Below, in pieces: positions 21,994 to 64,000 of a stretch of 64,000 nt of DNA. How positions within the stretch are numbered: the first letter of the stretch is position 1; each line of letters opens with the position of its first letter. The position numbers were made by a program, and so were the translations under genes. The DNA comes from Labia minor (lineage: Eukaryota; Arthropoda; Insecta; Dermaptera; Spongiphoridae): positions 49,510,296 to 49,574,295 of the forward strand of contig OY720346.1 of assembly GCA_963082975.1 (NCBI GenBank), in the 5' to 3' direction. Under the pieces are notes generated by a model. That model saw nothing but the letters and a program-made list of their open reading frames with translations, had not been told where the DNA came from and made no database searches.

Positions 21994-22103
21994 CTGGCTT
22001 AAGGAATATTACCCCCACTTCGACCAAAGTAATAATTTATTAAAGGCCTTCTAATCTCAACTAATACTGGTGCTTTATCTGAGAGTTATCTTTCTAAACG
22101 ATG
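21994..22103 (+). pseudogene. Short viral nucleoprotein fragment joined to the array
   Basis: It repeats 17842-17948 (WLKEYYPHFDQS to GALSESYLSKR) and then switches at about 22101 to array sequence (GGTGTCTCTCAGAG). In the old copy the same stretch instead continues into upstream nucleoprotein sequence, so this is a recombination joint marking the left border of the array. Confidence 0.7.
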
Positions 22104-23693
22104 GGTGTCTCTCAGAGATCAGTGTGGACTGAGAGGTCCTTCGCCACACAGACAACATGAGTACCTTATATGCGGTTTTCTCCGCCGACATGTTCTTGAG
22201 TGATTGTAACGCTCCTGGCCTAGTAGGAAGTTTCTTGCAGACCATTGTTCACCTGCTTGATGGAGTCGAAATGACACACTTATACAACATAGAGAATTAC
22301 ATAATGGGTAAGTATAAGGAAGTGTTCAAGATCCGGATTATCAGAGATGAGATGCGGGCGTACAACAAGGCAATTGACTTCGTGTGCTCCAAAGACGCTA
22401 ATGAGCATGGTTATATCAAGCTTCTTTATAACAAGACAGAGGCTGCTTGCCTCAATCGAGGCAATTTCCGCATCTTGCCGATGGCGGCAACAATCCTCGC
22501 CCGTTACGAGAATTCCTCGATGACAAACTACATGGGCGCTCAAAGTGATGCTACCTATAAGATCTTAGAGGACTGCATCCTGAGATACTTGTCTTCTAGG
22601 AACGCCTTGGCTCCAGTTGACATGATGCATTCTTCGTCTGCTCATTCAACACAGATAGAAAGTGAGGAGATATCAAGGAGCTTCATCATCTGGCGAGCAA
22701 GGATGAGGAGGACTCATTCTTCACGATGAGGGAGCAGCAATTGGTAGGCTTAGGAGTTTACTTCTTAATGACCGGGAAGAATTTACAAGCACAGGGTTAC
22801 TCAGGGTGGATCAATAATAGACTGAGAACATTTGCAGGAACCGCAGGTGTCATTCAGAGATCAGTGTGGGCTGAGAGGTCCTTCGCCCACAGACAGCAAT
22901 GAGTACCTTATATGCGGTTTTCTCCGCCGACATGTTCTTGAGTGATTGTAACGCTCCTGGCCTAGTAGGAAGTTTCTTCCAGACCATTGTTCACCTGCTT
23001 GATGGAGTCGAAATGACACACTTATACAACATAGAGAATTACATAATGGGCAAGTATAAGGAAGTGTTCAAGATCCGGATTATCAGAGATGAGATGCGGG
23101 CGTACAACAAGGCAATTGACTTCGTGTGCTCCAAAGACGCTAATGAGCATGGTTATATCAAGCTTCTTTATGACAAGACAGAGGCTGCTTGCCTCAATCG
23201 AGGCAATTTCCGCATCTTGCCGATGGCGGCAACAATCCTCGCCCGTTACGAGAATTCCTCGATGACAAACTACATGGGCGCTCAAAGTGATGCTACCTAT
23301 AAGATCTTAGAGGACTGCATCCTGAGATACTTGTCTTCTAGGAACGCCTTGGCTCCAGTTGACATGATGCATTTTTCGTCTGCTCATTCAACACAGATAG
23401 AAAGTGAGGAGATATCAAGGAGCTTCATCATCTCGTGGAGAGAGAAGGACAGTATCAAGGAATCAGGATCAGGGAACATCGCCTTTCCAAACCCTATGAT
23501 ACAAGCTCAGAACTCTCAGGTCCCCTCTTAGGAGATAAGTAAAGTAGTGTTTTTTAATTTGGGCGTCGGTTTTTAACTAAATTTAGGTACAGGTTTCCTA
23601 CCTGAGTATTTGTATTTTTAACTTTTAACTTAGAATTAAAAGTAATAATTGTTTAATGTAATTATAAGAGCTTTCCTATAATACAAATAGATA
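22104..23693 (+). repeat. Array left-edge partial unit with class C copy
   Basis: It starts inside the first frame. Second frames: 22157-22729 (190 aa, class C joint, E/K haplotype, YNK) and 22899-23531 (210 aa, E/K haplotype). The AT-rich tail follows. Confidence 0.85.
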
Positions 23694-24862
23694 GTGAACA
23701 CTTTGAACATTTCTGGCTCTATGAGCAAGTTCTCTGCTGCTCTTGCTGAGATCCAGTATAATATCGTCTTCCAAGACCTGACAAACGAGGAGACAGCTCA
23801 GCTCTTCCACTCTGAGCACTCAATAGAAAGTGAGGAGATATCAAGGAGCTTCATCATCTGGCGAGCAAGGATGAGGAGGACTCATTCTTCACGATGAGGG
23901 AGCAGCAATTGGTAGGCTTAGGAGTTTACTTCTTAATGATCGGGAAGAATTTACAAGCACAGGGTTACTCAGGGTGGATCAATAATAGACTGAGAACCTT
24001 TGCAGGAACCGCAGGTGTCTCTCAGAGATCAGTGTGGACTGAGAGGTCCTTCGCCACACAGACAACATGAGTACCTTATATGCGGTTTTCTCCGCCGACA
24101 TGTTCTTGAGTGATTGTAACGCTCCTGGCCTAGTAGGAAGTTTCTTCCAGACCATTGTTCACCTGCTTGATGGAGTCGAAATGACACACTTATACAACAT
24201 ACAGAATTACATAATGGGTAAGTATAAGGAAGTGTTCAAGATCCGGATTATCAGAGATGAGATGCGGGCGTACAACAAGGCAATTGACTTCGTGTGCTCC
24301 GAAGACGCTAATGAGCATGGTTATATCAAGCTTCTTTATGACAAGACAGAGACTGCTTGCCTCAATCGAGGTAATTTCCGCATCTTGCCGATGGCGGCAA
24401 CAATCCTCGCTCGTTACGAGAATTCCTTGATGACAAACTACATGGGCGCTCAAAGTGATGCTACCTATAAGATCTTAGAGGACTGCATCCTGAGATACTT
24501 GTCTTCAAGGAACGCCTTGGCTCCAGTTGACATGATGCATTTTTCGTCTGCTCATTCAACACAGATAGAAAGTGAGGAGATATCAAGGAGCTTCATCATC
24601 TCGTGGAGAGAGAAGGACAGTATCAAGGAATCAGGATCAGGGAACATCGCATTTCCAAACCCTATGATACAAGCTCAGAACTCTCAGGTCCCCTCTTAGG
24701 AGATAAGTAAAGTAGTGTTTTTTCAATTTGGGTGTCGGTTTTTAACTAAATTTAGGTACAGGTTTCCTACCTGAGTATTTGTATTTTTAACTTTTAACTT
24801 AGAATTAAAAATAATAATTGTTTAATGTATTTATAAGAGCTTTCCTATAATACAAATAGATA
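23694..24862 (+). repeat. Array unit 1, class B, 1169 bp
   Basis: First frame 23694-23897 is closed by the chimeric joint. Second frame 24067-24699, Q/E haplotype. Confidence 0.88.
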
Positions 24863-25989
24863 GTGAACACTTTGAACATTTCTGGCTCTATGAGCAAGTT
24901 CTCTGCTGCTCTTGCTGAGATCCAGTATAATATCGTCTTCCAAGACCTGACAAACGAGGAGACAGCTCAGCTCTTCCACTCTGAGGACTCAAGAAAATTC
25001 TGGGCGACCATGGCGAGCAAGGATGAGGAGGACTCATTGTTTACGATGAGGGAGCAGCAATTGGTAGACTTAGGAGTTTACTTCTTAATGATCGGGAAGA
25101 ATTTACAAGCACAGGGTTACTCAGGGTGGATCAATAATAGACGGAGAACCTTTGCACGAATCGCAGGTGTCTCTCAGAGATCAGTGTGGACTGAGAGGTC
25201 ATTCGCCACACAGACAACATGAGTACCTTATATGCGGTTTTCTCCGCCGACATGTTCTTGAGTGATTGTAACGCTCCTGGCCTAGTAGGAAGTTTCTTGC
25301 AGACCATTGTTCACCTGCTTGATGGAGTCGAAATGACACACTTATACAACATAGAGAATTATATAATGGGTAAGTATAAGGAAGTGTTCAAGATCCGGAT
25401 TATCAGAGATGAGATGCGGGCGTACAACAAGGCAATTGACTTCGTGTGCTCCAAAGACGCTAATGAGCATGGTTATATCAAGCTTCTTTATAACAAGACA
25501 GAGGCTGCTTGCCTCAATCGAGGCAATTTCCGCATCTTGCCGATGGCGGCAACAATCCTCGCCCGTTACGAGAATTCCTCGATGACAAACTACATGGGCG
25601 CTCAAAGTGATGCTACCTATAAGATCTTAGAGGACTGCATCCTGAGATACTTGTCTTCTAGGAACGCCTTGGCTCCAGTTGACATGATGCATTCTTCGTC
25701 TGCTCATTCAACACAGATAGAAAGTGAGGAGATATCAAGGAGCTTCATCATCTGGCGAGCAAGGATGAGGAGGACTCATTCTTCACGATGAGGGAGCAGC
25801 AATTGGTAGGCTTAGGAGTTTACTTCTTAATGACCGGGAAGAATTTACAAGCACAGGGTTACTCAGGGTGGATCAATAATAGACTGAGAACATTTGCAGG
25901 AACCGCAGGTGTCATTCAGAGATCAGTGTGGGCTGAGAGGTCCTTCGCCCACAGACAGCAATGAGTACCTTATATGCGGTTTTCTCCGC

Positions 25990-26020
25990 CAACTTCCATC
26001 TGCGGCGGAGTGTATTCGAA
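25990..26020 (+). other. 27-bp ancestral segment retained in one array copy
   Basis: Between TTCTCCGCC and ATGTTCTTGAG this copy has an additional in-frame segment encoding the FHLRRSVFE residues. The old copy at 18510-18540 has the equivalent (FHLRKSVFE); all other 39 second frames have the short form ADMFL. The deletion therefore arose inside the array lineage. Confidence 0.85.
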
Positions 26021-26556
26021 ATGTTCTTGAGTGATTGTAACGCTCCTGGCCTAGTAGGAAGTTTCTTCCAGACCATTGTTCACCTGCTTGATGGAGTCGA
26101 AATGACACACTTATACAACATAGAGAATTACATAATGGGCAAGTATAAGGAAGTGTTCAAGATCCGGATTATCAGAGATGAGATGCGGGCGTACAACAAG
26201 GCAATTGACTTCGTGTGCTCCAAAGACGCTAATGAGCATGGTTATATCAAGCTTCTTTATGACAAGACAGAGGCTGCTTGCCTCAATCGAGGCAATTTCC
26301 GCATCTTGCCGATGGCGGCAACAATCCTCGCCCGTTACGAGAATTCCTCGATGACAAACTACATGGGCGCTCAAAGTGATGCTACCTATAAGATCTTAGA
26401 GGACTGCATCCTGAGATACTTGTCTTCTAGGAACGCCTTGGCTCCAGTTGACATGATGCATTCTTCGTCTGCTCATTCAACACAGATAGAAAGTGAGGAG
26501 ATATCAAGGAGCTTCATCATCTGGCGAGCAAGGATGAGGAGGACTCATTCTTCACG

Positions 26557-27363
26557 ATGAGGGAGCAGCAATTGGTAGGCTTAGGAGTTTACTTCTTAAT
26601 GATCGGGAAGAATTTACAAGCACAGGGTTACTCAGGGTGGATCAATAATAGACTGAGAACATTTGCAGGTACCGCAGGTGTCATTCAGAGATCAGTGTGG
26701 GCTGAGAGGTCCTTCGCCACACAGACAACAATGAGTACCTTATATGCGGTTTTCTCCGCCGACATGTTCTTGAGTGATTGTAACGCTCCTGGCCTAGTAG
26801 GAAGTTTCTTCCAGACCATTGTTCACCTGCTTGATGGAGTCGAAATGACACACTTATACAACATAGAGAATTACATAATGGGCAAGTATAAGGAAGTGTT
26901 CAAGAACCGGATTATCAGAGATGAGATGCGGGCGTACAACAAGGCAATTGACTTCGTGTGCTCCAAAGACGCTAATGAGCATGGTTATATCAAGCTTCTT
27001 TATGACAAGACAGAGGCTGCTTGCCTCAATCGAGGCAATTTCCGCATCTTGCCGATGGCGGCAACAATCCTCGCCCGTTACGAGAATTCCTCGATGACAA
27101 ACTACATGGGCGCTCAAAGTGATGCTACCTATAAGATCTTAGAGGACTGCATCCTGAGATACTTGTCTTCTAGGAACGCCTTGGCTCCAGTTGACATGAT
27201 GCATTTTTCGTCTGCTCATTCAACACAGATAGAAAGTGAGGATATATCAAGGAGCTTCATCGTCTCGTGGAGAGAGAAGGACAGTATCAAGGAATCAGGA
27301 TCAGGGAACATCGCCTTTCCAAACCCTATGATACAAGCTCAGAACTCTCAGGTCCCCTCTTAG
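26557..27363 (+). pseudogene. Only array copy with both nucleoprotein frames joined, 268 aa, N-terminally truncated
   Basis: The frame runs without a shift from MREQQLVGLGVYFLM through FATQTTMSTLYAVF to QVPS. It has one more A before the ATG than the usual units, which restores the frame seen in the old copy at 18475. It carries FKNR instead of FKIR and SEDIS instead of SEEIS. It still lacks the upstream VNTLNIS part and everything N-terminal to it, so it cannot encode a complete nucleoprotein. Whether it is transcribed is unknown. Confidence 0.7.
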
Positions 27364-27526
27364 GAGATAAGTAAAGTAGTGTTTTTTTAATTTGGGCGTC
27401 GGTTTTTAACTAAATTTAGGTACAGGTTTCCTACCTGAGTATTTGTATTTTTAACTTTTAACTTAGAATTAAGAGTAATAATTGTTTAATGTAATTATAA
27501 GAGCTTTCCTATAATACAAATAGATA

Positions 27527-28695
27527 GTGAACACTTTGAACATTTCTGGCTCTATGAGCAAGTTCTCTGCTGCTCTTGCTGAGATCCAGTATAATATCGT
27601 CTTCCAAGACCTGACAAACGAGGAGACAGCTCAGCTCTTCCACTCTGAGCACTCAATAGAAAGTGAGGAGATATCAAGGAGCTTCATCATCTGGCGAGCA
27701 AGGATGAGGAGGACTCATTGTTTACGATGAGGGAGCAGCAATTGGTAGACTTAGGAGTTTACTTCTTAATGATCGGGAAGAATTTACAAGCACAGGGTTA
27801 CTCAGGGTGGATCAATAATAGACTGAGAACCTTTGCAGGAACCGCAGGTGTCTCTCAGAGATCAGTGTGGACTGAGAGGTCCTTCGCCACACAGACAACA
27901 TGAGTACCTTATATGCGGTTTTCTCCGCCGACATGTTCTTGAGTGATTGTAACGCTCCTGGCCTAGTAGGAAGTTTCTTCCAGACCATTGTTCACCTGCT
28001 TGATGGAGTCGAAATGACACACTTATACAACATACAGAATTACATAATGGGTAAGTATAAGGAAGTGTTCAAGATCCGGATTATCAGAGATGAGATGCGG
28101 GCGTACAACAAGGCAATTGACTTCGTGTGCTCCGAAGACGCTAATGAGCATGGTTATATCAAGCTTCTTTATGACAAGACAGAGACTGCTTGCCTCAATC
28201 GAGGTAATTTCCGCATCTTGCCGATGAGGGCAACAATCCTCGCTCGTTACGAGAATTCCTTGATGACAAACTACATGGGCGCTCAAAGTGATGCTACCTA
28301 TAAGATCTTAGAGGACTGCATCCTGAGATACTTGTCTTCAAGGAACGCCTTGGCTCCAGTTGACATGATGCATTTTTCGTCTGCTCATTCAACACAGATA
28401 GAAAGTGAGGAGATATCAAGGAGCTTCATCATCTCGTGGAGAGAGAAGGACAGTATCAAGGAATAAGGATCAGGGAACATCGCATTTCCAAACCCTATGA
28501 TACAAGCTCAGAACTCTCAGGTCCCCTCTTAGGAGATAAGTAAAGTAGTGTTTTTTCAATTTGGGTGTCGGTTTTTAACTAAATTTAGGTACAGGTTTCC
28601 TACCTGAGTATTTGTATTTTTAACTTTTAACTTAGAATTAAAAATAATAATTGTTTAATGTATTTATAAGAGCTTTCCTATAATACAAATAGATA
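27527..28695 (+). repeat. Array unit 3, class B, 1169 bp
   Basis: First frame 27527-27730; continuation frame 27718-27903. Second frame 27900-28466 is cut at 188 aa by TAA after DSIKE. Q/E haplotype with PMRAT. Confidence 0.88.
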
Positions 28696-29847
28696 GTGAA
28701 CACTTTGAACATTTCTGGCTCTATGAGCAAGTTCTCTGCTGCTCTTGCTGAGATCCAGTATAATATCGTCTTCCAAGACCTGACAAACGAGGAGACAGCT
28801 CAGCTCTTCCACTCTGAGCACTCAAGAAAATTCTGGGCGACCATGGCGAGCAAGGATGAGGAGGACTCATTCTTCACGATGAGGGAGCAGCAATTGGTAG
28901 GCTTAGGAGTTTACTTCTTAATGATCGGGAAGAATTTACAAGCACAGGGTTACTCAGGGTGGATCAATAATAGACTGAGAACCTTTGCAGGAACCGCAGG
29001 TGTCTCTCAGAGATCAGTGTGGACTGAGAGGTCCTTCGCCACACAGACAACATGAGTACCTTATATGCGGTTTTCTCCGCCGACATGTTCTTGAGTGATT
29101 GTAACGATCCTGGCCTAGTAGGAAGTTTCTTCCAGACCATTGTTCACCTGCTTGATGGAGTCGAAATGACACACTTATACAACATACAGAATTACATAAT
29201 GGGTAAGTATAAGGAAGTGTTCAAGATCCGGATTATCAGAGATGAGATGCGGGCGTACAACAAGGCAATTGACTTCGTGTGCTCCGAAGACGCTAATGAG
29301 CATGGTTATATCAAGCTTCTTTATGACAAGACAGAGACTGCTTGCCTCAATCGAGGTAATTTCCGCATCTTGCCGATGAGGGCAACAATCCTCGCTCGTT
29401 ACGAGAATTCCTTGATGACAAACTACATGGGCGCTCAAAGTGATGCTACCTATAAGATCTTAGAGGACTGCATCCTGAGATACTTGTCTTCAAGGAACGC
29501 CTTGGCTCCAGTTGACATGATGCATTTTTCGTCTGCTCATTCAACACAGATAGAAAGTGAGGAGATATCAAGGAGCTTCATCATCTCGTGGAGAGAGAAG
29601 GACAGTATCAAGGAATAAGGATCAGGGAACATCGCATTTCCAAACCCTATGATACAAGCTCAGAACTCTCAGGTCCCCTCTTAGGAGATAAGTAAAGTAG
29701 TGTTTTTTCAATTTGGGTGTCGGTTTTTAACTAAATTTAGGTACAGGTTTCCTACCTGAGTATTTGTATTTTTAACTTTTAACTTAGAATTAAAAATAAT
29801 AATTGTTTAATGTATTTATAAGAGCTTTCCTATAATACAAATAGATA
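28696..29847 (+). repeat. Array unit 4, class A, 1152 bp
   Basis: First frame 28696-29055. Second frame 29052-29618 carries the same early TAA as unit 3, plus NDPG and PMRAT. Q/E haplotype. Confidence 0.88.
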
Positions 29848-30999
29848 GTGAACACTTTGAACATTTCTGGCTCTATGAGCAAGTTCTCTGCTGCTCTTGC
29901 TGAGATCCAGTATAATATCGTCTTCCAAGACCTGACAAACGAGGAGACAGCTCAGCTCTTCCACTCTGAGGACTCAAGAAAATTCTGGGCGACCATGGCG
30001 AGCAAGGATGAGGAGGACTCATTGTTTACGATGAGGGAGCAGCAATTGGTAGACTTAGGAGTTTACTTCTTAATGATCGGGAAGAATTTACAAGCACAGG
30101 GTTACTCAGGGTGGATCAATAATAGACGGAGAACCTTTACACGAACCGCAGGTGTCTCTCAGAGATCAGTGTGGACTGAGAGGTCATTCGCCACACAGAC
30201 AACATGAGTACCTTATATGCGGTTTTCTCCGCCGACATGTTCTTGAGTGATTGTAACGCTCCTGGCCTAGTAGGAAGTTTCTTCCAGACCATTGTTCACC
30301 TGCTTGATGGAGTCGAAATGACACACTTATACAACATAGAGAATTACATAATGGGCAAGTATAAGGAAGTGTTCAAGATCCGGATTATCAGAGATGAGAT
30401 GCGGGCGTACAACAAGGCAATTGACTTCGTGTGCTCCAAAGACGCTAATGAGCATGGTTATATCAAGCTTCTTTATGACAAGACAGAGGCTGCTTGCCTC
30501 AATCGAGGCAATTTCCGCATCTTGCCGATGGCGGCAACAATCCTCGCCCGTTACGAGAATTCCTCGATGACAAACTACATGGGCGCTCAAAGTGATGCTA
30601 CCTATAAGATCTTAGAGGACTGCATCCTGAGATACTTGTCTTCTAGGAACGCCTTGGCTCCAGTTGACATGATGCATTTTTCGTCTGCTCATTCAACACA
30701 GATAGAAAGTGAGGAGATATCAAGGAGCTTCATCATCTCGTGGAGAGAGAAGGACAGTATCAAGGAATCAGGATCATGGAACATCGCCTTTCCAAACCCT
30801 ATGATACAAGCTCAGAACTCTCAGGTCCCCTCTTAGGAGATAAGTAAAGTAGTGTTTTTTCAATTTGGGCGTCGGTTTTTAACTAAATTTAGGTACAGGT
30901 TTCCTACCTGAGTATTTGTATTTTTAACTTTTAACTTAGAATTAAAAGTAATAATTGTTTAATGTAATTATAAGAGCTTTCCTATAATACAAATAGATA
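29848..30999 (+). repeat. Array unit 5, class A, 1152 bp
   Basis: First frame 29848-30207 (RRRTFTRT). Second frame 30204-30836, E/K haplotype, SGSWN. Confidence 0.88.
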
Positions 31000-32893
31000 G
31001 TGAACACTTTGAACATTTCTGGCTCTATGAGCAAGTTCTCTGCTGCTCTTGCTGAGATCCAGTATAATATCGTCTTCCAAGACCTGACAAACGAGGAGAC
31101 AGCTCAGCTCTTCCACTCTGAGCACTCAAGAAAATTCTGGGCGACCATGGCGAGCAAGGATGAGGAGGACACATTGTTTACGATGAGGGAGCAGCAATTG
31201 GTAGGCTTAGGAGTTTACTTCTTAATGATCGGGAAGAATTTACAAGCACAGGGTTACTCAGGGGGGATCAATAATAGACTGAGAACCTTTGCAGGAACCG
31301 CAGGTGTCTCTCAGAGATCAGTGTGGACTGAGAGGTCCTTCGCCACACAGACAACATGAGTACCTTATATGCGGTTTTCTCCGCCGACATGTTGTTGAGT
31401 GATTGTAACGCTCCTGGCCTAGTAGGAAGTTTCTTGCAGACCATTGTTCACCTGCTTGATGGAGTCGAAATGACACACTTATACAACATAGAGAATTACA
31501 TAATGGGTAAGTATAAGGAAGTGTTCAAGATCCGGATTATCAGAGATGAGATGCGGGCGTACAACAAGGCAATTGACTTCGTGTGCTCCAAAGACGCTAA
31601 TGAGCATGGTTATATCAAGCTTCTTTATAACAAGACAGAGGCTGCTTGCCTCAATCGAGGCAATTTCCGCATCTTGCCGATGGCGGCAACAATCCTCGCC
31701 CGTTACGAGAATTCCTCGATGACAAACTACATGGGCGCTCAAAGTGATGCTACCTATAAGATCTTAGAGGACTGCATCCTGAGATACTTGTCTTCTAGGA
31801 ACGCCTTGGCTCCAGTTGACATGATGCATTCTTCGTCTGCTCATTCAACACAGATAGAAAGTGAGGAGATATCAAGGAGCTTCATCATCTGGCGAGCAAG
31901 GATGAGGAGGACTCATTCTTCACGATGAGGGAGCAGCAATTGGTAGGCTTAGGAGTTTACTTCTTAATGACCGGGAAGAATTTACAAGCACAGGGTTACT
32001 CAGGGTGGATCAATAATAGACTGAGAACATTTGCAGGAACCGCAGGTGTCATTCAGAGATCAGTGTGGGCTGAGAGGTCCTTCGCCCACAGACAGCAATG
32101 AGTACCTTATATGCGGTTTTCTCCGCCGACATGTTCTTGAGTGATTGTAACGCTCCTGGCCTAGTAGGAAGTTTCTTCCAGACCATTGTTCACCTGCTTG
32201 ATGGAGTCGAAATGACACACTTATACAACATAGAGAATTACATAATGGGCAAGTATAAGGAAGTGTTCAAGAACCGGATTATCAGAGATGAGATGCGGGC
32301 GTACAACAAGGAAATTGACTTCGTGTGCTCCAAAGACGCTAATGAGCATGGTTATATCAAGCTTCTTTATGACAAGACAGAGGCTGCTTGCCTCAATCGA
32401 GGCAATTTCCGCATCTTGCCGATGGCGGCAACAATCCTCGCCCGTTACGAGAATTCCTCGATGACAAACTACATGGGCGCTCAAAGTGATGCTACCTATA
32501 AGATCTTAGAGGACTGCATCCTGAGATACTTGTCTTCTAGGAACGCCTTGGCTCCAGTTGACATGATGCATTTTTCGTCTGCTCATTCAACACAGATAGA
32601 AAGTGAGGAGATATCAAGGAGCTTCATCGTCTCGTGGAGAGAGAAGGACAGTATCAAGGAATCAGGATCAGGGAACATCGCCTTTCCAAACCCTATGATA
32701 CAAGCTCAGAACTCTCAGGTCCCCTCTTAGGAGATAAGTAAAGTAGTGTTTTTTTAATTTGGGCGTCGGTTTTTAACTAAATTTAGGTACAGGTTTCCTA
32801 CCTGAGTATTTGTATTTTTAACTTTTAACTTAGAATTAAGAGTAATAATTGTTTAATGTATTTATAAGAGCTTTCCTATAATACAAATAGATA
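31000..32893 (+). repeat. Array unit 6, class A plus C, 1894 bp
   Basis: First frame 31000-31359 (YSGGINN). Second frames 31356-31928 (class C, YNK, ADMLL) and 32098-32730 (FKNR and YNKEID variants). E/K haplotype. Confidence 0.88.
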
Positions 32894-50881: not shown

Positions 50882-52033
50882 GTGAACACTTTGAACATTT
50901 CTGGCTCTATGAGCAAGTTCTCTGCTGCTCTTGCTGAGATCCAGTATAATATCGTCTTCCAAGACCTGACAAACGAGGAGACAGCTCAGCTCTTCCACTC
51001 TGAGGACTCAAGAAAATTCTGGGCGACCATGGCGAGCAAGGATGAGGAGGACTCATTGTTTACGATGAGGGAGCAGCAATTGGTAGACTTAGGAGTTTAC
51101 TTCTTAATGATCGGGAAGAATTTACAAGCACAGGGTTACTCAGGGTGGATCAATAATAGACTGAGAACCTTTGCAGGAACCGCAGGTGTCTCTCAGAGAT
51201 CAGTGTGGACTGAGAGGTCCTTCGCCACACAGACAACATGAGTACCTTATATGCGGTTTTCTCCGCCGACATGTTCTTGAGTGATTGTAACGATCCTGGC
51301 CTAGTAGGAAGTTTCTTCCAGACCATTGTTCACCTGCTTGATGGAGTCGAAATGACACACTTATACAACATACAGAATTACATAATGGGTAAGTATAAGG
51401 AAGTGTTCAAGATCCGGATTATCAGAGATGAGATGCGGGCGTACAACAAGGCAATTGACTTCGTGTGCTCCGAAGACGCTAATGAGCATGGTTATATCAA
51501 GCTTCTTTATGACAAGGCAGAGACTGCTTGCCTCAATCGAGGTAATTTCCGCATCTTGCCGATGAGGGCAACAATCCTCGCTCGTTACGAGAATTCCTTG
51601 ATGACAAACTACATGGGCGCTCAAAGTGATGCTACCTATAAGATCTTAGAGGACTGCATCCTGAGATACTTGTCTTCAAGGAACGCCTTGGCTCCAGTTG
51701 ACATGATGCATTTTTCGTCTGCTCATTCAACACAGATAGAAAGTGAGGAGATATCAAGGAGCTTCATCATCTCGTGGAGAGAGAAGGACAGTATCAAGGA
51801 ATCAGGATCAGGGAACATCGCATTTCCAAACCCTATGATACAAGCTCAGAACTCTCAGGTCCCCTCTTAGGAGATAAGTAAAGTAGTGTTTTTTCAATTT
51901 GGGCGTCGGTTTTTAACTAAATTTAGGTACAGGTTTCCTACCTGAGTATTTGTATTTTTAACTTTTAACTTAGAATTAAAAGTAATAATTGTTTAATGTA
52001 ATTATAAGAGCTTTCCTATAATACAAATAGATA
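50882..52033 (+). repeat. Array unit 20, class A, 1152 bp
   Basis: First frame 50882-51241. Second frame 51238-51870 with NDPG, DKAET and PMRAT. Matches unit 11 and unit 27. Confidence 0.88.
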
Positions 52034-53927
52034 GTGAACACTTTGAACATTTCTGGCTCTATGAGCAAGTTCTCTGCTGCTCTTGCTGAGATCCAGTATA
52101 ATATCGTCTTCCAAGACCTGACAAACGAGGAGACAGCTCAGCTCTTCCACTCTGAGCACTCAAGAAAATTCTGGGCGACCATGGCGAGCAAGGATGAGGA
52201 GGACACATTGTTTACGATGAGGGAGCAGCAATTGGTAGGCTTAGGAGTTTACTTCTTAATGATCGGGAAGAATTTACAAGCACAGGGTTACTCAGGGTGG
52301 ATCAATAATAGACGGAGAACCTTTACACGAACCGCAGGTGTCTCTCAGAGATCAGTGTGGACTGAGAGGTCATTCGCCACACAGACAACATGAGTACCTT
52401 ATATGCGGTTTTCTCCGCCGACATGTTCTTGAGTGATTGTAACGCTCCTGGCCTAGTAGGAAGTTTCTTCCAGACCATTGTTCACCTGCTTGATGGAGTC
52501 GAAATGACACACTTATACAACATAGAGAATTACATAATGGGTAAGTATAAGGAAGTGTTCAAGATCCGGATTATCAGAGATGAGATGCGGGCGTACAACA
52601 AGGCAATTGACTTCGTGTGCTCCAAAGACGCTAATGAGCATGGTTATATCAAGCTTCTTTATAACAAGACAGAGGCTGCTTGCCTCAATCGAGGCAATTT
52701 CCGCATCTTGCCGATGGCGGCAACAATCCTCGCCCGTTGCGAGAATTCCTCGATGACAAACTACATGGGCGCTCAAAGTGATGCTACCTATAAGATCTTA
52801 GAGGACTGCATCCTGAGATACTTGTCTTCTAGGAACGCCTTGGCTCCAGTTGACATGATGCATTCTTCGTCTGCTCATTCAACACAGATAGAAAGTGAGG
52901 AGATATCAAGGAGCTTCATCATCTGGCGAGCAAGGATGAGGAGGACTCATTCTTCACGATGAGGGAGCAGCAATTGGTAGGCTTAGGAGTTTACTTCTTA
53001 ATGACCGGGAAGAATTTACAAGCACAGGGTTACTCAGGGTGGATCAATAATAGACTGAGAACATTTGCAGGAACCGCAGGTGTCATTCAGAGATCAGTGT
53101 GGGCTGAGAGGTCCTTCGCCCACAGACAGCAATGAGTACCTTATATGCGGTTTTCTCCGCCGACATGTTCTTGAGTGATTGTAACGCTCCTGGCCTAGTA
53201 GGAAGTTTCTTCCAGACCATTGTTCACCTGCTTGATGGAGTCGAAATGACACACTTATACAACATAGAGAATTACATAATGGGCAAGTATAAGGAAGTGT
53301 TCAAGATCCGGATTATCAGAGATGAGATGCGGGCGTACAACAAGGCAATTGACTTCGTGTGCTCCAAAGACGCTAATGAGCATGGTTATATCAAGCTTCT
53401 TTATGACAAGACAGAGGCTGCTTGCCTCAATCGAGGCAATTTCCGCATCTTGCCGATGGCGGCAACAATCCTCGCCCGTTACGAGAATTCCTCGATGACA
53501 AACTACATGGGCGCTCAAAGTGATGCTACCTATAAGATCTTAGAGGACTGCATCCTGAGATACTTGTCTTCTAGGAACGCCTTGGCTCCAGTTGACATGA
53601 TGCATTTTTCGTCTGCTCATTCAACACAGATAGAAAGTGAGGAGATATCAAGGAGCTTCATCATCTCGTGGAGAGAGAAGGACAGTATCAAGGAATCAGG
53701 ATCAGGGAACATCGCCTTTCCAAACCCTATGATACAAGCTCAGAACTCTCAGGTCCCCTCTTAGGAGATAAGTAAAGTAGTGTTTTTTCAATTTGGGCGT
53801 CGGTTTTTAACTAAATTTAGGTACAGGTTTCCTACCTGAGTATTTGTATTTTTAACTTTTAACTTAGAATTAAAAGTAATAATTGTTTAATGTAATTATA
53901 AGAGCTTTCCTATAATACAAATAGATA
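52034..53927 (+). repeat. Array unit 21, class A plus C, 1894 bp
   Basis: First frame 52034-52393. Second frames 52390-52962 (class C, YNK, rare ARCENSS) and 53132-53764 (E/K haplotype). Confidence 0.88.
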
Positions 53928-55096
53928 GTGAACACTTTGAACATTTCTGGCTCTATGAGCAAGTTCTCTGCTGCTCTTGCTGAGATCCAGTATAATATCG
54001 TCTTCCAAGACCTGACAAACGAGGAGACAGCTCAGCTCTTCCACTCTGAGCACTCAATAGAAAGTGAGGAGATATCAAGGAGCTTCATCATCTGGCGAGG
54101 AAGGATGAGGAGGACTCATTCTTCACGATGAGGGAGCAGCAATTGGTAGGCTTAGGAGTTTACTTCTTAATGATCGGGAAGAATTTACAAGCACAGGGTT
54201 ACTCAGGGTGGATCAATAATAGACTAAGAACCTTTGCAGGAACCGCAGGTGTCTCTCAGAGATCAGTGTGGACTGAGAGGTCCTTCGCCACACAGACAAC
54301 ATGAGTACCTTATATGCGGTTTTCTCCGCCGACATGTTCTTGAGTGATTGTAACGCTCCTGGCCTAGTAGGAAGTTTCTTCCAGACCATTGTTCACCTGC
54401 TTGATGGAGTCGAAATGACACACTTATACAACATACAGAATTACATAATGGGTAAGTATAAGGAAGTGTTCAAGATCCGGATTATCAGAGATGAGATGCG
54501 GGCGTACAACAAGGCAATTGACTTCGTGTGCTCCGAAGACGCTAATGAGCATGGTTATATCAAGCTTATTTATGACAAGACAGAGACTGCTTGCCTCAAT
54601 CGAGGTAATTTCCGCATCTTGCCGATGGCGGCAACAATCCTCGCTCGTTACGAGAATTCCTTGATGACAAACTACATGGGCGCTCAAAGTGATGCTACCT
54701 ATAAGATCTTAGAGGACTGCATCCTGAGATACTTGTCTTCAAGGAACGCCTTGGCTCCAGTTGACATGATGCATTTTTCGTCTGCTCATTCAACACAGAT
54801 AGAAAGTGAGGAGATATCAAGGAGCTTCATCATCTCGTGGAGAGAGAAGGACAGTATCAAGGAATCAGGATCAGGGAACATCGCATTTCCAAACCCTATG
54901 ATACAAGCTCAGAACTCTCAGGTCCCCTCTTAGGAGATAAGTAAAGTAGTGTTTTTTCAATTTGGGTGTCGGTTTTTAACTAAATTTAGGTACAGGTTTC
55001 CTACCTGAGTATTTGTATTTTTAACTTTTAACTTAGAATTAAAAATAATAATTGTTTAATGTATTTATAAGAGCTTTCCTATAATACAAATAGATA
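53928..55096 (+). repeat. Array unit 22, class B, 1169 bp
   Basis: WRGRM first frame 53928-54131. Second frame 54301-54933 with KLIYDK, Q/E haplotype. Confidence 0.88.
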
Positions 55097-56248
55097 GTGA
55101 ACACTTTGAACATTTCTGGCTCTATGAGCAAGTTCTCTGCTGCTCTTGCTGAGATCCAGTATAATATCGTCTTCCAAGACCTGACAAACGAGGAGACAGC
55201 TCAGCTCTTCCACTCTGAGGACTCAAGAAAATTCTGGGCGACCATGGCGAGCAAGGATGAGGAGGACACATTGTTTACGATGAGGGAGCAGCAATTGGTA
55301 GACTTAGGAGTTTACTTCTTAATGATCGGGAAGAATTTACAAGCACAGGGTTACTCAGGGTGGATCAATAATAGACGGAGAACCTTTACACGAACCGCAG
55401 GTGTCTCTCAGAGATCAGTGTGGACTGAGAGGTCATTCGCCACACAGACAACATGAGTACCTTATATGCGGTTTTCTCCGCCGACATGTTCTTGAGTGAT
55501 TGTAACGCTCCTGGCCTAGTAGGAAGTTTCTTCCAGACCATTGTTCACCTGCTTGATGGAGTCGAAATGACACACTTATACAACATAGAGAATTACATAA
55601 TGGGCAAGTATAAGGAAGTGTTCAAGATCCGGATTATCAGAGATGAGATGCGGGCGTACAACAAGGCAATTGACTTCGTGTGCTCCAAAGACGCTAATGA
55701 GCATGGTTATATCAAGCTTCTTTATGACAAGACAGAGGCTGCTTGCCTCAATCGAGGCAATTTCCGCATCTTGCCGATGGCGGCAACAATCCTCGCCCGT
55801 TACGAGAATTCCTCGATGACAAACTACATGGGCGCTCAAAGTGATGCTACCTATAAGATCTTAGAGGACTGCATCCTGAGATACTTGTCTTCTAGGAACG
55901 CCTTGGCTCCAGTTGACATGATGCATTTTTCGTCTGCTCATTCAACACAGATAGAAAGTGAGGAGATATCAAGGAGCTTCATCATCTCGTGGAGAGAGAA
56001 GGACAGTATCAAGGAATCAGGATCAGGGAACATCGCCTTTCCAAACCCTATGATACAAGCTCAGAACTCTCAGGTCCCCTCTTAGGAGATAAGTAAAGTA
56101 GTGTTTTTTCAATTTGGGCGTCGGTTTTTAACTAAATTTAGGTACAGGTTTCCTACCTGAGTATTTGTATTTTTAACTTTTAACTTAGAATTAAAAGTAA
56201 TAATTGTTTAATGTAATTATAAGAGCTTTCCTATAATACAAATAGATA
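55097..56248 (+). repeat. Array unit 23, class A, 1152 bp
   Basis: First frame 55097-55456. Second frame 55453-56085, E/K haplotype, DCILRY and SGSGN. Confidence 0.88.
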
Positions 56249-57417
56249 GTGAACACTTTGAACATTTCTGGCTCTATGAGCAAGTTCTCTGCTGCTCTTG
56301 CTGAGATCCAGTATAATATCGTCTTCCAAGACCTGACAAACGAGGAGACAGCTCAGCTCTTCCACTCTGAGCACTCAATAGAAAGTGAGGAGATATCAAG
56401 GAGCTTCATCATCTGGCGAGGAAGGATGAGGAGGACTCATTCTTCACGATGAGGGAGCAGCAATTGGTAGGCTTAGGAGTTTACTTCTTAATGATCGGGA
56501 AGAATTTACAAGCACAGGGTTACTCAGGGTGGATCAATAATAGACTAAGAACCTTTGCAGGAACCGCAGGTGTCTCTCAGAGATCAGTGTGGACTGAGAG
56601 GTCCTTCGCCACACAGACAACATGAGTACCTTATATGCGGTTTTCTCCGCCGACATGTTCTTGAGTGATTGTAACGCTCCTGGCCTAGTAGGAAGTTTCT
56701 TCCAGACCATTGTTCACCTGCTTGATGGAGTCGAAATGACACACTTATACAACATACAGAATTACATAATGGGTAAGTATAAGGAAGTGTTCAAGATCCG
56801 GATTATCAGAGATGAGATGCGGGCGTACAACAAGGCAATTGACTTCGTGTGCTCCGAAGACGCTAATGAGCATGGTTATATCAAGCTTATTTATGACAAG
56901 ACAGAGACTGCTTGCCTCAATCGAGGTAATTTCCGCATCTTGCCGATGGCGGCAACAATCCTCGCTCGTTACGAGAATTCCTTGATGACAAACTACATGG
57001 GCGCTCAAAGTGATGCTACCTATAAGATCTTAGAGGACTGCATCCTGAGATACTTGTCTTCAAGGAACGCCTTGGCTCCAGTTGACATGATGCATTTTTC
57101 GTCTGCTCATTCAACACAGATAGAAAGTGAGGAGATATCAAGGAGCTTCATCATCTCGTGGAGAGAGAAGGACAGTATCAAGGAATCAGGATCAGGGAAC
57201 ATCGCATTTCCAAACCCTATGATACAAGCTCAGAACTCTCAGGTCCCCTCTTAGGAGATAAGTAAAGTAGTGTTTTTTCAATTTGGGTGTCGGTTTTTAA
57301 CTAAATTTAGGTACAGGTTTCCTACCTGAGTATTTGTATTTTTAACTTTTAACTTAGAATTAAAAATAATAATTGTTTAATGTATTTATAAGAACTTTCC
57401 TATAATACAAATAGATA
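56249..57417 (+). repeat. Array unit 24, class B, 1169 bp
   Basis: WRGRM first frame 56249-56452. Second frame 56622-57254 with KLIYDK, Q/E haplotype. The tail has AAGAACTTTCC instead of AAGAGCTTTCC. Confidence 0.88.
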
Positions 57418-58569
57418 GTGAACACTTTGAACATTTCTGGCTCTATGAGCAAGTTCTCTGCTGCTCTTGCTGAGATCCAGTATAATATCGTCTTCCAAGA
57501 CCTGACAAACGAGGAGACAGCTCAGCTCTTCCACTCTGAGGACTCAAGAAAATTCTGGGCGACCATGGCGAGCAAGGATGAGGAGGACACATTGTTTACG
57601 ATGAGGGAGCAGCAATTGGTAGACTTAGGAGTTTACTTCTTAATGATCGGGAAGAATTTACAAGCACAGGGTTACTCAGGGTGGATCAATAATAGACTGA
57701 GAACCTTTACACGAACCGCAGGTGTCTCTCAGAGATCAGTGTGGACTGAGAGGTCATTCGCCACACAGACAACATGAGTACCTTATATGCGGTTTTCTCC
57801 GCCGACATGTTCTTGAGTGATTGTAACGCTCCTGGCCTAGTAGGAAGTTTCTTCCAGACCATTGTTCACCTGCTTGATGGAGTCGAAATGACACACTTAT
57901 ACAACATACAGAATTACATAATGGGTAAGTATAAGGAAGTGTTCAAGATCCGGATTATCAGAGATGAGATGCGGGCGTACAACAAGGCAATTGACTTCGT
58001 GTGCTCCGAAGACGCTAATGAGCATGGTTATATCAAGCTTCTTTATGACAAGACAGAGACTGCTTGCCTCAATCGAGGTAATTTCCGCATCTTGCCGATG
58101 GCGGCAACAATCCTCGCTCGTTACGAGAATTCCTTGATGACAAACTACATGGGCGCTCAAAGTGATGCTACCTATAAGATCTTAGAGGACTGCATCCTGA
58201 GATACTTGTCTTCAAGGAACGCCTTGGCTCCAGTTGACATGATGCATTTTTCGTCTGCTCATTCAACACAGATAGAAAGTGAGGAGATATCAAGGAGCTT
58301 CATCATCTCGTGGAGAGAGAAGGACAGTATCAAGGAATCAGGATCAGGGAACATCGCCTTTCCAAACCCTATGATACAAGCTCAGAACTCTCAGGTCCCC
58401 TCTTAGGAGATAAGTAAAGTAGTGTTTTTTCAATTTGGGTGTCGGTTTTTAACTAAATTTAGGTACAGGTTTCCTACCTGAGTATTTGTATTTTTAACTT
58501 TTAACTTAGAATTAAAAATAATAATTGTTTAATGTATTTATAAGAGCTTTCCTATAATACAAATAGATA
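57418..58569 (+). repeat. Array unit 25, class A, 1152 bp
   Basis: First frame 57418-57777 with the mixed NNRLRTFTRT form. Second frame 57774-58406, Q/E haplotype. Confidence 0.88.
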
Positions 58570-59738
58570 GTGAACACTTTGAACATTTCTGGCTCTATGA
58601 GCAAGTTCTCTGCTGCTCTTGCTGAGATCCAGTATAATATCGTCTTCCAAGACCTGACAAACGAGGAGACAGCTCAGCTCTTCCACTCTGAGCACTCAAT
58701 AGAAAGTGAGGAGATATCAAGGAGCTTCATCATCTGGCGAGCAAGGATGAGGAGGACTCATTCTTCACGATGAGGGAGCAGCAATTGGTAGGCTTAGGAG
58801 TTTACTTCTTAATGATCGGGAAGAATTTACAAGCACAGGGTTACTCAGGGTGGATCAATAATAGACTGAGAACCTTTACACGAACCGCAGGTGTCTCTCA
58901 GAGATCAGTGTGGACTGAGAGGTCATTCGCCACACAGACAACATGAGTACCTTATATGCGGTTTTCTCCGCCGACATGTTCTTGAGTGATTGTAACGCTC
59001 CTGGCCTAGTAGGAAGTTTCTTCCAGACCATTGTTCACCTGCTTGATGGAGTCGAAATGACACACTTATACAACATACAGAATTACATAATGGGTAAGTA
59101 TAAGGAAGTGTTCAAGATCCGGATTATCAGAGATGAGATGCGGGCGTACAACAAGGCAATTGACTTCGTGTGCTCCGAAGACGCTAATGAGCATGGTTAT
59201 ATCAAGCTTCTTTATGACAAGACAGAGACTGCTTGCCTCAATCGAGGTAATTTCCGCATCTTGCCGATGGCGGCAACAATCCTCGCTCGTTACGAGAATT
59301 CCTTGATGACAAACTACATGGGCGCTCAAAGTGATGCTACCTATAAGATCTTAGAGGACTGCATCCTGAGATACTTGTCTTCAAGGAACGCCTTGGCTCC
59401 AGTTGACATGATGCATTTTTCGTCTGCTCATTCAACACAGATAGAAAGTGAGGAGATATCAAGGAGCTTCATCATCTCGTGGAGAGAGAAGGACAGTATC
59501 AAGGAATCAGGATCAGGGAACATCGCCTTTCCAAACCCTATGATACAAGCTCAGAACTCTCAGGTCCCCTCTTAGGAGATAAGTAAAGTAGTGTTTTTTC
59601 AATTTGGGTGTCGGTTTTTAACTAAATTTAGGTACAGGTTTCCTACCTGAGTATTTGTATTTTTAACTTTTAACTTAGAATTAAAAATAATAATTGTTTA
59701 ATGTATTTATAAGAGCTTTCCTATAATACAAATAGATA
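58570..59738 (+). repeat. Array unit 26, class B, 1169 bp
   Basis: First frame 58570-58773. Second frame 58943-59575, Q/E haplotype. Confidence 0.88.
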
Positions 59739-60890
59739 GTGAACACTTTGAACATTTCTGGCTCTATGAGCAAGTTCTCTGCTGCTCTTGCTGAGATCCA
59801 GTATAATATCGTCTTCCAAGACCTGACAAACGAGGAGACAGCTCAGCTCTTCCACTCTGAGGACTCAAGAAAATTCTGGGCGACCATGGCGAGCAAGGAT
59901 GAGGAGGACTCATTGTTTACGATGAGGGAGCAGCAATTGGTAGACTTAGGAGTTTACTTCTTAATGATCGGGAAGAATTTACAAGCACAGGGTTACTCAG
60001 GGTGGATCAATAATAGACTGAGAACCTTTGCAGGAACCGCAGGTGTCTCTCAGAGATCAGTGTGGACTGAGAGGTCCTTCGCCACACAGACAACATGAGT
60101 ACCTTATATGCGGTTTTCTCCGCCGACATGTTCTTGAGTGATTGTAACGATCCTGGCCTAGTAGGAAGTTTCTTCCAGACCATTGTTCACCTGCTTGATG
60201 GAGTCGAAATGACACACTTATACAACATACAGAATTACATAATGGGTAAGTATAAGGAAGTGTTCAAGATCCGGATTATCAGAGATGAGATGCGGGCGTA
60301 CAACAAGGCAATTGACTTCGTGTGCTCCGAAGACGCTAATGAGCATGGTTATATCAAGCTTCTTTATGACAAGGCAGAGACTGCTTGCCTCAATCGAGGT
60401 AATTTCCGCATCTTGCCGATGAGGGCAACAATCCTCGCTCGTTACGAGAATTCCTTGATGACAAACTACATGGGCGCTCAAAGTGATGCTACCTATAAGA
60501 TCTTAGAGGACTGCATCCTGAGATACTTGTCTTCAAGGAACGCCTTGGCTCCAGTTGACATGATGCATTTTTCGTCTGCTCATTCAACACAGATAGAAAG
60601 TGAGGAGATATCAAGGAGCTTCATCATCTCGTGGAGAGAGAAGGACAGTATCAAGGAATCAGGATCAGGGAACATCGCATTTCCAAACCCTATGATACAA
60701 GCTCAGAACTCTCAGGTCCCCTCTTAGGAGATAAGTAAAGTAGTGTTTTTTCAATTTGGGCGTCGGTTTTTAACTAAATTTAGGTACAGGTTTCCTACCT
60801 GAGTATTTGTATTTTTAACTTTTAACTTAGAATTAAAAGTAATAATTGTTTAATGTAATTATAAGAGCTTTCCTATAATACAAATAGATA
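59739..60890 (+). repeat. Array unit 27, class A, 1152 bp
   Basis: First frame 59739-60098. Second frame 60095-60727 with NDPG, DKAET and PMRAT, as in unit 20. Confidence 0.88.
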
Positions 60891-62784
60891 GTGAACACTT
60901 TGAACATTTCTGGCTCTATGAGCAAGTTCTCTGCTGCTCTTGCTGAGATCCAGTATAATATCGTCTTCCAAGACCTGACAAACGAGGAGACAGCTCAGCT
61001 CTTCCACTCTGAGCACTCAAGAAAATTCTGGGCGACCATGGCGAGCAAGGATGAGGAGGACACATTGTTTACGATGAGGGAGCAGCAATTGGTAGGCTTA
61101 GGAGTTTACTTCTTAATGATCGGGAAGAATTTACAAGCACAGGGTTACTCAGGGTGGATCAATAATAGACGGAGAACCTTTACACGAACCGCAGGTGTCT
61201 CTCAGAGATCAGTGTGGACTGAGAGGTCATTCGCCACACAGACAACATGAGTACCTTATATGCGGTTTTCTCCGCCGACATGTTCTTGAGTGATTGTAAC
61301 GCTCCTGGCCTAGTAGGAAGTTTCTTCCAGACCATTGTTCACCTGCTTGATGGAGTCGAAATGACACACTTATACAACATAGAGAATTACATAATGGGTA
61401 AGTATAAGGAAGTGTTCAAGATCCGGATTATCAGAGATGAGATGCGGGCGTACAACAAGGCAATTGACTTCGTGTGCTCCAAAGACGCTAATGAGCATGG
61501 TTATATCAAGCTTCTTTATAACAAGACAGAGGCTGCTTGCCTCAATCGAGGCAATTTCCGCATCTTGCCGATGGCGGCAACAATCCTCGCCCGTTGCGAG
61601 AATTCCTCGATGACAAACTACATGGGCGCTCAAAGTGATGCTACCTATAAGATCTTAGAGGACTGCATCCTGAGATACTTGTCTTCTAGGAACGCCTTGG
61701 CTCCAGTTGACATGATGCATTCTTCGTCTGCTCATTCAACACAGATAGAAAGTGAGGAGATATCAAGGAGCTTCATCATCTGGCGAGCAAGGATGAGGAG
61801 GACTCATTCTTCACGATGAGGGAGCAGCAATTGGTAGGCTTAGGAGTTTACTTCTTAATGACCGGGAAGAATTTACAAGCACAGGGTTACTCAGGGTGGA
61901 TCAATAATAGACTGAGAACATTTGCAGGAACCGCAGGTGTCATTCAGAGATCAGTGTGGGCTGAGAGGTCCTTCGCCCACAGACAGCAATGAGTACCTTA
62001 TATGCGGTTTTCTCCGCCGACATGTTCTTGAGTGATTGTAACGCTCCTGGCCTAGTAGGAAGTTTCTTCCAGACCATTGTTCACCTGCTTGATGGAGTCG
62101 AAATGACACACTTATACAACATAGAGAATTACATAATGGGCAAGTATAAGGAAGTGTTCAAGATCCGGATTATCAGAGATGAGATGCGGGCGTACAACAA
62201 GGCAATTGACTTCGTGTGCTCCAAAGACGCTAATGAGCATGGTTATATCAAGCTTCTTTATGACAAGACAGAGGCTGCTTGCCTCAATCGAGGCAATTTC
62301 CGCATCTTGCCGATGGCGGCAACAATCCTCGCCCGTTACGAGAATTCCTCGATGACAAACTACATGGGCGCTCAAAGTGATGCTACCTATAAGATCTTAG
62401 AGGACTGCATCCTGAGATACTTGTCTTCTAGGAACGCCTTGGCTCCAGTTGACATGATGCATTTTTCGTCTGCTCATTCAACACAGATAGAAAGTGAGGA
62501 GATATCAAGGAGCTTCATCATCTCGTGGAGAGAGAAGGACAGTATCAAGGAATCAGGATCAGGGAACATCGCCTTTCCAAACCCTATGATACAAGCTCAG
62601 AACTCTCAGGTCCCCTCTTAGGAGATAAGTAAAGTAGTGTTTTTTCAATTTGGGCGTCGGTTTTTAACTAAATTTAGGTACAGGTTTCCTACCTGAGTAT
62701 TTGTATTTTTAACTTTTAACTTAGAATTAAAAGTAATAATTGTTTAATGTAATTATAAGAGCTTTCCTATAATACAAATAGATA
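60891..62784 (+). repeat. Array unit 28, class A plus C, 1894 bp
   Basis: First frame 60891-61250. Second frames 61247-61819 (class C, YNK, ARCENSS as in unit 21) and 61989-62621 (E/K haplotype). Confidence 0.88.
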
Positions 62785-63953
62785 GTGAACACTTTGAACA
62801 TTTCTGGCTCTATGAGCAAGTTCTCTGCTGCTCTTGCTGAGATCCAGTATAATATCGTCTTCCAAGACCTGACAAACGAGGAGACAGCTCAGCTCTTCCA
62901 CTCTGAGCACTCAATAGAAAGTGAGGAGATATCAAGGAGCTTCATCATCTGGCGAGGAAGGATGAGGAGGACTCATTCTTCACGATGAGGGAGCAGCAAT
63001 TGGTAGGCTTAGGAGTTTACTTCTTAATGATCGGGAAGAATTTACAAGCACAGGGTTACTCAGGGTGGATCAATAATAGACTAAGAACCTTTGCAGGAAC
63101 CGCAGGTGTCTCTCAGAGATCAGTGTGGACTGAGAGGTCCTTCGCCACACAGACAACATGAGTACCTTATATGCGGTTTTCTCCGCCGACATGTTCTTGA
63201 GTGATTGTAACGCTCCTGGCCTAGTAGGAAGTTTCTTCCAGACCATTGTTCACCTGCTTGATGGAGTCGAAATGACACACTTATACAACATACAGAATTA
63301 CATAATGGGTAAGTATAAGGAAGTGTTCAAGATCCGGATTATCAGAGATGAGATGCGGGCGTACAACAAGGCAATTGACTTCGTGTGCTCCGAAGACGCT
63401 AATGAGCATGGTTATATCAAGCTTATTTATGACAAGACAGAGACTGCTTGCCTCAATCGAGGTAATTTCCGCATCTTGCCGATGGCGGCAACAATCCTCG
63501 CTCGTTACGAGAATTCCTTGATGACAAACTACATGGGCGCTCAAAGTGATGCTACCTATAAGATCTTAGAGGACTGCATCCTGAGATACTTGTCTTCAAG
63601 GAACGCCTTGGCTCCAGTTGACATGATGCATTTTTCGTCTGCTCATTCAACACAGATAGAAAGTGAGGAGATATCAAGGAGCTTCATCATCTCGTGGAGA
63701 GAGAAGGACAGTATCAAGGAATCAGGATCAGGGAACATCGCATTTCCAAACCCTATGATACAAGCTCAGAACTCTCAGGTCCCCTCTTAGGAGATAAGTA
63801 AAGTAGTGTTTTTTCAATTTGGGTGTCGGTTTTTAACTAAATTTAGGTACAGGTTTCCTACCTGAGTATTTGTATTTTTAACTTTTAACTTAGAATTAAA
63901 AATAATAATTGTTTAATGTATTTATAAGAGCTTTCCTATAATACAAATAGATA
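62785..63953 (+). repeat. Array unit 29, class B, 1169 bp
   Basis: WRGRM first frame 62785-62988. Second frame 63158-63790 with KLIYDK, Q/E haplotype. Confidence 0.88.
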
Positions 63954-64000
63954 GTGAACACTTTGAACATTTCTGGCTCTATGAGCAAGTTCTCTGCTGC
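63954..64000 (+). repeat. Array unit 30, cut by the window edge
   Basis: Begins with the standard GTGAACACTTTGAACATTTC start, so the array continues to the right. Confidence 0.9.

Follow-up and report, generated by a model that had tools for sequence, protein, structure and literature searches.

We found that the genome of the dermapteran insect Labia minor (assembly GCA_963082975.1; 604,477,936 bases in 71 contigs) carries a 278,566-bp satellite whose units derive from what is probably the nucleoprotein (N) gene of a mononegavirus. The array begins at position 22104 of the analysed window, a stretch of 64,000 nucleotides of contig OY720346.1 (C4:49510296-49574295, C4 denoting this contig), and ends at C4:49810964, which is position 4965 of the stretch L029. 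Coordinates without a contig prefix are window positions throughout. We read 246,862 of the 278,566 bp, 241,897 bp of them contiguously (the window and the 200 kb to its right); the remaining 31,704 bp (C4:49774296-49805999) hold at least 16 frame matches in a genome search in which the best 150 of 301 candidates were scored. We consider it likely that a fragment of the viral gene was captured and then grown by unequal exchange into a 279-kb satellite that is neutral at the protein level.

All 234 unit starts in the sequence read (230 in the contiguous part and 4 in L029) lie on a single strand. The contiguous part contains no minus-strand match and no non-unit sequence longer than 30 bp outside the three segments of the unit, and no 25-mer is common to the window and its own reverse complement. 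Within the window, C-terminal frames of the 210-aa type start 40 times, from 22157 to 63158, all on the + strand, and 119-aa frames start 30 times, the last one being cut by the window end. Mean 25-mer multiplicity per 1-kb block is 1.0-1.75 before position 22001 and 22.2-27.8 from there onward, and because of this jump the array cannot be put down to chance. Tandem Repeats Finder does not report it, since the longest period it considers is 500, and scans of the window for Rfam families and tRNAs gave no match. Long head-to-tail arrays of similar units with nothing between them are satellite DNA, and over the 246,862 bp read the locus is such an array, located at 49.5-49.8 Mb within a chromosome-size contig of 86.4 Mb. 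A preliminary description of the window had proposed a tandem satellite of more than 41 kb in uniform orientation, with at least 30 repeats, 40 C-terminal frames and no other gene between the copies. All of this is borne out in the part read, and the array proves to be larger; it had also been said to have no end in sight, and both ends have now been located.

The standard unit begins with 356 bp of N carrying the 119-aa frame, continues with 633 bp of N carrying the 210-aa frame and ends in an AT-rich tail of 163 bp. The array and examples of its parts are as follows, residue numbers referring to P0001, a relative described below:

22104..64000, + strand: left part of the N-derived satellite array, which continues past the window to C4:49810964
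24863..25222, + strand: 119-aa frame, beginning at about residue 88 of P0001, first part of the unit
24067..24699, + strand: 210-aa frame (C-terminal N), out of frame with the 119-aa part
24700..24862, + strand: 163-bp AT-rich tail that separates one N piece from the next
26557..27363, + strand: uninterrupted 268-aa frame, which served as query
22691..22895, + strand: junction of a 742-bp unit, base 535 joined to base 149
23694..24066, + strand: 1169-type variant, 37 bp of C-terminal frame spliced in

The two N parts are out of frame with each other in most window units, and some units are open across the boundary (e.g. 26557-27363). Start-to-start lengths in the window are 1152 bp (16 units), 1169 bp (12) and 742 bp (7), with 1168, 770, 741 and 668 bp once each, and these 39 complete units comprise 26 distinct sequences. 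For the contiguous 241.9 kb we used pattern-based counts in place of BLAST-based starts, which misplace some units, and obtained 229 units: 1152 bp (87), 1169 bp (75), 742 bp (50), 770 bp (7), 1179 bp (6) and four lengths found once each. Of these, 86 are distinct, and mean pairwise identity inside the three main classes is 98.8, 99.35 and 99.6%. The repeated piece is indeed a 5'-truncated N-like fragment with an AT-rich tail, as first described, but it comes in three main types and not as one uniform unit.

The unit types carry the traces of exchange. The short (742-bp) unit lacks 410 bp: its C-terminal frame breaks off at base 535 and continues with base 149 of the following 119-aa part. In the 1169 type, the 119-aa part contains 37 bp of C-terminal frame that carry the junction of the 742 type. 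The identical deletion junction is therefore found alone in one type and spliced inside another, and the simplest reading is that a short unit and a standard one were misaligned when they exchanged sequence. The longest exact repeat among the best 1500 offsets examined measures at least 8,937 bp, at an offset of 8,857 bp, and in the left part of the array the C-terminal frame occurs as two haplotypes, in alternating stretches. The array is homogenised by exchange, as seen in the recombinant unit types and exact blocks; these junctions and long exact repeats would be the marks of unequal exchange.

No trace of coding selection is visible inside the array. C-terminal frames are open to the usual stop in 28 of 40 window copies and differ by 5 synonymous and 19 non-synonymous changes, which gives a ratio of the proportions of non-synonymous (pN) and synonymous (pS) differences of 0.98; a simulation of this frame with the observed mutation types and no selection predicts 5.3 synonymous changes (2-9). 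The 119-aa frames (16 of 30 open; 3 synonymous and 13 non-synonymous changes) have a pN/pS of 1.16 over codons 1-115. Codons 116-119 were excluded because an indel misaligns them; with these codons included the value is 0.95. The same stop is kept by 161 of the 230 C-terminal frames in the contiguous 241.9 kb, as expected of young copies, and the longest + strand stop-to-stop frame there has 288 codons. The array appears neutral at the protein level, with no hint of coding selection. A coding gene family under selection was considered and rejected, pN/pS within the array being about 1.

To identify the source protein we turned to the 268-aa frame. It matches two proteins without name or domain, P0001 (425 aa, 52% identity, E 2.2e-75) and P0002 (436 aa, 49% identity, E 1.1e-71), which come from contigs of up to 2.4 and 3.2 kb, respectively. 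A profile search retrieved no further relative besides these two; the 210-aa frame as query gave 0 of 67 candidates at E <= 1 under length limits that excluded full-length relatives, and no related locus was found in IMG/VR and GTDB genomes. We then compared a structural model of P0001 with predicted viral structures (Foldseek, 3Di+AA, threshold E <= 0.001). The best match is the nucleoprotein of Jimsystermes virus (28% identity over 438 columns, E 8.4e-8), and the others at this threshold are the nucleoprotein of Hymenopteran arli-related virus OKIAV100 and uncharacterized proteins of Hangzhou acrida cinerea lispivirus 1 and Hubei rhabdo-like virus 3. All four belong to Lispiviridae and two of them are named nucleoprotein, for a query model that is poor (predicted local distance difference test, pLDDT, 40); a fifth match (E 0.074) is filed under Rhabdoviridae. 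Two AlphaFold models reached pLDDT values of 40.2 and 39.7, too poor for an argument from fold, and because the model is poor we take the lispivirid matches to be carried by the amino-acid part of the search. Weak PDB matches to ATR-interacting protein (E 0.013), an ABC transporter (E 0.044) and the Duffy receptor (E 0.38) were dismissed as chance. Members of the Lispiviridae are recorded chiefly from arthropods and nematodes (PMC12642352). A mononegaviral nucleoprotein is the probable source, and the matches hint that it may have been a lispivirid one.

Fragments of a mononegaviral polymerase (L) gene lie in the same locus. Left of the array, a 117-aa frame (20825..21178, + strand) matches PF00946 at E 1.6e-5, below the curated cut-off, and vesicular stomatitis virus L at E 0.15. 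A genome search with PF00946, in which all 14 candidates were scored, returned seven matches, the window's own fragment not being among them, and none was obtained in 14 control genomes. Three of the seven (C4:49823865-49825553) share the strand of the array and lie 12.9 kb beyond its right end. Eight frames were tested in this stretch: four exceed the PF00946 cut-off (E 3.2e-19, 1.8e-10, 4.8e-16 and 4.2e-9), one falls below it (2.7e-4) and three have no match. For the two pieces that were checked against PDB, the best matches are solved mononegaviral L proteins (E 2.1e-4 and 1.5e-4). Stops interrupt the C4 pieces, which do not follow one another in the order of the profile. The other four genome matches, also with stops, are at C2:55828658-55830947 (55.83 Mb), away from all N copies found. 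Relationship to a gene of Mononegavirales is thus apparent from sequence similarity for the L pieces; for N it would be traced only via P0001 and the Foldseek matches. A mononegaviral origin of the array is backed by the L fragments in its locus.

The array is itself nested in another tandem repeat, with units of 4.15 kb, whose features in the window are:

17218..21369, + strand: 4152-bp unit of the second tandem repeat, containing pieces of an IS1595-like transposon, a decayed N and an L fragment
17884..19103, + strand: older N, reaching back almost to the N start, with stops and frameshifts; 72% amino-acid identity to the array N in the C-terminal frame
20825..21178, + strand: the L fragment described above
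21370..22100, + strand: start of the next 4152-bp unit, interrupted by the array; 99.6% identical to 17218-17948
21782..22100, + strand: 319-bp flank, present again with 100% identity immediately past the array's right end (L029:4962-5280)

The array is preceded by one full unit and a further 731 bp and followed by about three more units. To the right, 4.5 kb match 17630-22100 at 99.67%, after which units repeat with a period of 4167 bp. A genome search for the start of the older N, whose first codons are included in 21370..22100, gave at least four copies, of which one precedes the array and three follow it (the best 150 of 212 candidates of this N-start search were scored). Since these flanks match and repeat, the array is enclosed in a tandem of 4.15-kb units. 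On the left the border falls within the first codons of the older N and on the right 319 bp earlier in the unit, which is why 319 bp are present on both sides. At the right border, array and flank overlap by 4 bases, and the border structure would fit insertion by end joining or template switching. The left flank contains transposon pieces: an IS1595-type transposase (PF12762), presumably Merlin-like, and a retrotransposon-type reverse-transcriptase RNase H frame on the - strand (12592-13253; PF17917, E 3.2e-25). With these pieces in the flank and a contig of chromosome size, the viral sequence is embedded in host DNA. The AT-rich left flank also has a 144-bp direct repeat of 97.9% identity (8972-9115 and 9274-9417).

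The N-start search also located copies at C4:58539228, C4:58541714, C1:68771641 and C1:68793857. The copy at C1:68.79 Mb (L039:574-1884) is an uninterrupted stop-to-stop frame of 436 codons (431 from the first Met) and could be either a recent capture or a selected host copy. At C4:58.54 Mb (L038) there are five N pieces spaced by 914, 786, 786 and 914 bp. They are adjoined by a CENP-B_N DNA-binding piece (PF04218, E 1.4e-7), which we take to be part of a pogo/Tigger-like transposon, and a 302-aa open frame crosses there from other sequence into the N start (L038:708-1070 and L038:1366-2271 for these features). Altogether, we identified five N lineages in the genome, and three of the N-bearing sequences (the array, the 4152-bp units and the pieces at C4:58.54 Mb) are tandem. 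Amino-acid identity to the array in the C-terminal frame is 87.5% for C1:68.79, 81% for C1:68.77, 74-75% for C4:58.54 and 72% for the older N. Between the array and other N copies pS is 0.79-1.09 and pN 0.07-0.19; the C-terminal frame taken against other loci gives a saturated pS of 0.93-1.09 and a pN of 0.07-0.17. The N lineages appear to have diverged under strong protein selection, most simply as separate viruses. Units of the array itself recur 12.4 Mb away at C4:62.24 Mb (L030, C4:62240500-62250499), scrambled and with units facing both ways; there are at least two inversion points within 10 kb, near L030:3699 and 6402. If transcribed, these inverted viral repeats could give double-stranded RNA.

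Traces of how the viral sequence entered the genome were sought after the N genes. No A-run of 7 or more was found within about 570-600 bp after the N of the two C1 copies (L039 and L037), target-site duplications not having been searched for, and one A-run of 7 directly follows the older N. Because the C1 copies lack such a run, they give no evidence that a retrotransposon inserted a polyadenylated mRNA. Within the 163-bp tail, a single stretch of 31 bases weakly resembles the region after the N of C1:68.79 (4 of 1000 shuffles score as high), and similarity to three other N loci does not exceed chance (73, 528 and 748 of 1000 shuffles); the tail may be viral sequence from behind N.

Overall, we suggest the following origin. 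A piece of a lispivirus-like N gene would have been copied into the animal germ line as an ordinary non-retroviral endogenous viral element (EVE). A 5'-truncated part of it, which starts near codon 88 of P0001 and extends 163 bp beyond the stop, would then have been duplicated head to tail and placed inside the tandem 4.15-kb repeat, where relics of a different but related virus are also present. Rounds of unequal exchange, together with gene conversion, could have expanded it to 279 kb and produced the three main unit types and the multi-unit blocks that recur locally, the present state being that of satellite DNA neutral at the protein level. Size, orientation, unit types, recombinant junctions, the lack of a coding-selection signal, the nested position and the nearby L fragments are observed, and from them we infer the lispivirid family of the source, how the sequence entered, that unequal exchange drove the growth and in which order this happened.

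Several observations weigh against this scenario. The size of the array and the order of its units rest on assembly sequence, 246,862 of 278,566 bp having been read, and unequal exchange is read from its products only. The pN/pS values are based on small counts, and only frames still open (28 of 40 and 16 of 30) entered them. Low pN together with high pS between loci would also arise from a selected old host copy that was later duplicated. The family placement rests on P0001 matches with a template modelling (TM) score of about 0.25 and a model of pLDDT 40, and a model of the window's 268-aa frame gave 0 of 28 Foldseek matches at E <= 0.001, its best (E 0.41) being a lispivirid. No Pfam model reaches its cut-off for any N frame, the best sub-threshold matches (from E 0.017) being to unrelated families, and no viral nucleoprotein model matches up to E 10, although HMMER filters drop most matches above 0.1. 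Among PDB chains up to E 10 there is no nucleoprotein, and the best N-profile matches (E 1.7 and 0.38) are unrelated. Judged by Pfam and PDB alone, the frames have no similarity to any mononegavirus nucleoprotein, the outcome that the preliminary description had named as speaking against it; only the lispivirid matches answer this point.

That description had assigned the gene to the p40 type of bornaviruses. Either source would be a mononegaviral N gene, and endogenous bornavirus N copies are common in mammals (PMC2987831). However, all four matches at E <= 0.001 are lispivirid, and no bornavirus match was obtained in Pfam or PDB. We take both of these databases to include bornavirus N. A bornaviral source is therefore hardly credible: a mononegaviral nucleoprotein remains the likely origin, with lispivirid N matches and L fragments at the locus behind it, but the p40 type is not supported. 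A domesticated N protein acting as an antiviral decoy and encoded by a multi-copy host gene family also seems highly improbable. Domesticated N copies are on record for afrotherian mammals (PMC4982594), the same stop is reached by 161 of 230 C-terminal frames and the C1 copy has its 436 uninterrupted codons, but the array lacks the first fifth of N, its two parts are in different frames in most window units, no + strand frame in the contiguous 241.9 kb exceeds 288 codons and pN/pS is about 1. Nor do we put much weight on an assembly artefact, i.e. an inflated short tandem or a mis-join, which we regard as very unlikely. Exact repeats of at least 8.9 kb are hard to assemble, but the contig spans 86.4 Mb, the flanks on entry and exit match each other, 86 of 229 units are distinct and a separate rearranged piece of the array family exists at C4:62.24 Mb.

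The array might instead be kept as a source of small RNAs (PIWI-interacting RNAs, piRNAs, or small interfering RNAs) against related viruses, a tandem memory in which copy number sets the dose. We consider this unlikely. In its favour, the orientation is the same across 279 kb, tandem arrangement recurs among the five N lineages, satellite-repeat piRNA clusters exist in culicine mosquitoes (PMC7919454) and EVEs of the sea louse yield piRNAs (PMC10287012). Neutral drift of the frames, however, permits such a role and does not show it, and tandem growth needs no benefit. The broader proposal that this genome repeatedly turns lispivirus-like N genes into arrays retained for antiviral small-RNA dose, and so has an amplifiable memory of one viral gene, strikes us as quite doubtful.

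A captured viral fragment expanded into a neutral satellite would imply that the gene of an RNA virus can be turned into satellite DNA. Here a recognisable, non-repetitive viral fragment became a satellite of hundreds of units, and therefore the birth of a satellite can be followed: the full-length N lineages of the same genome provide an outgroup, and the five-piece tandem at C4:58.54 Mb may show a first step. The array also offers a direct test of tandem viral copies as small-RNA memory. As a rule, endogenous copies of RNA-virus genes occur singly or in small numbers. Among open PubMed Central papers (subscription papers and preprints being outside this scope) we found no satellite derived from a non-retroviral RNA-virus gene, and the word "tandem" is absent from the main text of PMC6932829 and PMC11978097.

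The vertebrate endogenous bornavirus-like N elements (EBLNs) are likewise mononegavirus N genes captured in animal genomes and are occasionally duplicated in tandem, afrotherian cluster I EBLNs being called tandemly duplicated in PMC4982594; in our case the source looks lispivirid, the fragment is 5'-truncated and hundreds of copies form one array. Viral fragments are also repeated at one place in a rearranged element of infectious hypodermal and hematopoietic necrosis virus (IHHNV), a parvovirus, in Penaeus monodon (PMC8982415). That element is flanked on both sides by a repeated host sequence of 591/590 bp, compared with 319 bp here, but it comes from a DNA virus and comprises 9 kb in mixed orientation with six 661-bp units, whereas ours derives from an RNA-virus gene and has hundreds of units in one orientation over 279 kb. 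The culicine satellite-repeat piRNA cluster is a tandem satellite at one locus too, of about 5.6 kb and not called viral where PMC7919454 describes it, while the array described here is known from DNA alone. The array also resembles satellite DNA with higher-order repeats, which has head-to-tail units (here mostly 0.74-1.17 kb) in several classes, exactly repeated multi-unit blocks and high local identity; what sets this array apart is that its unit is recognisably a fragment of a viral gene.

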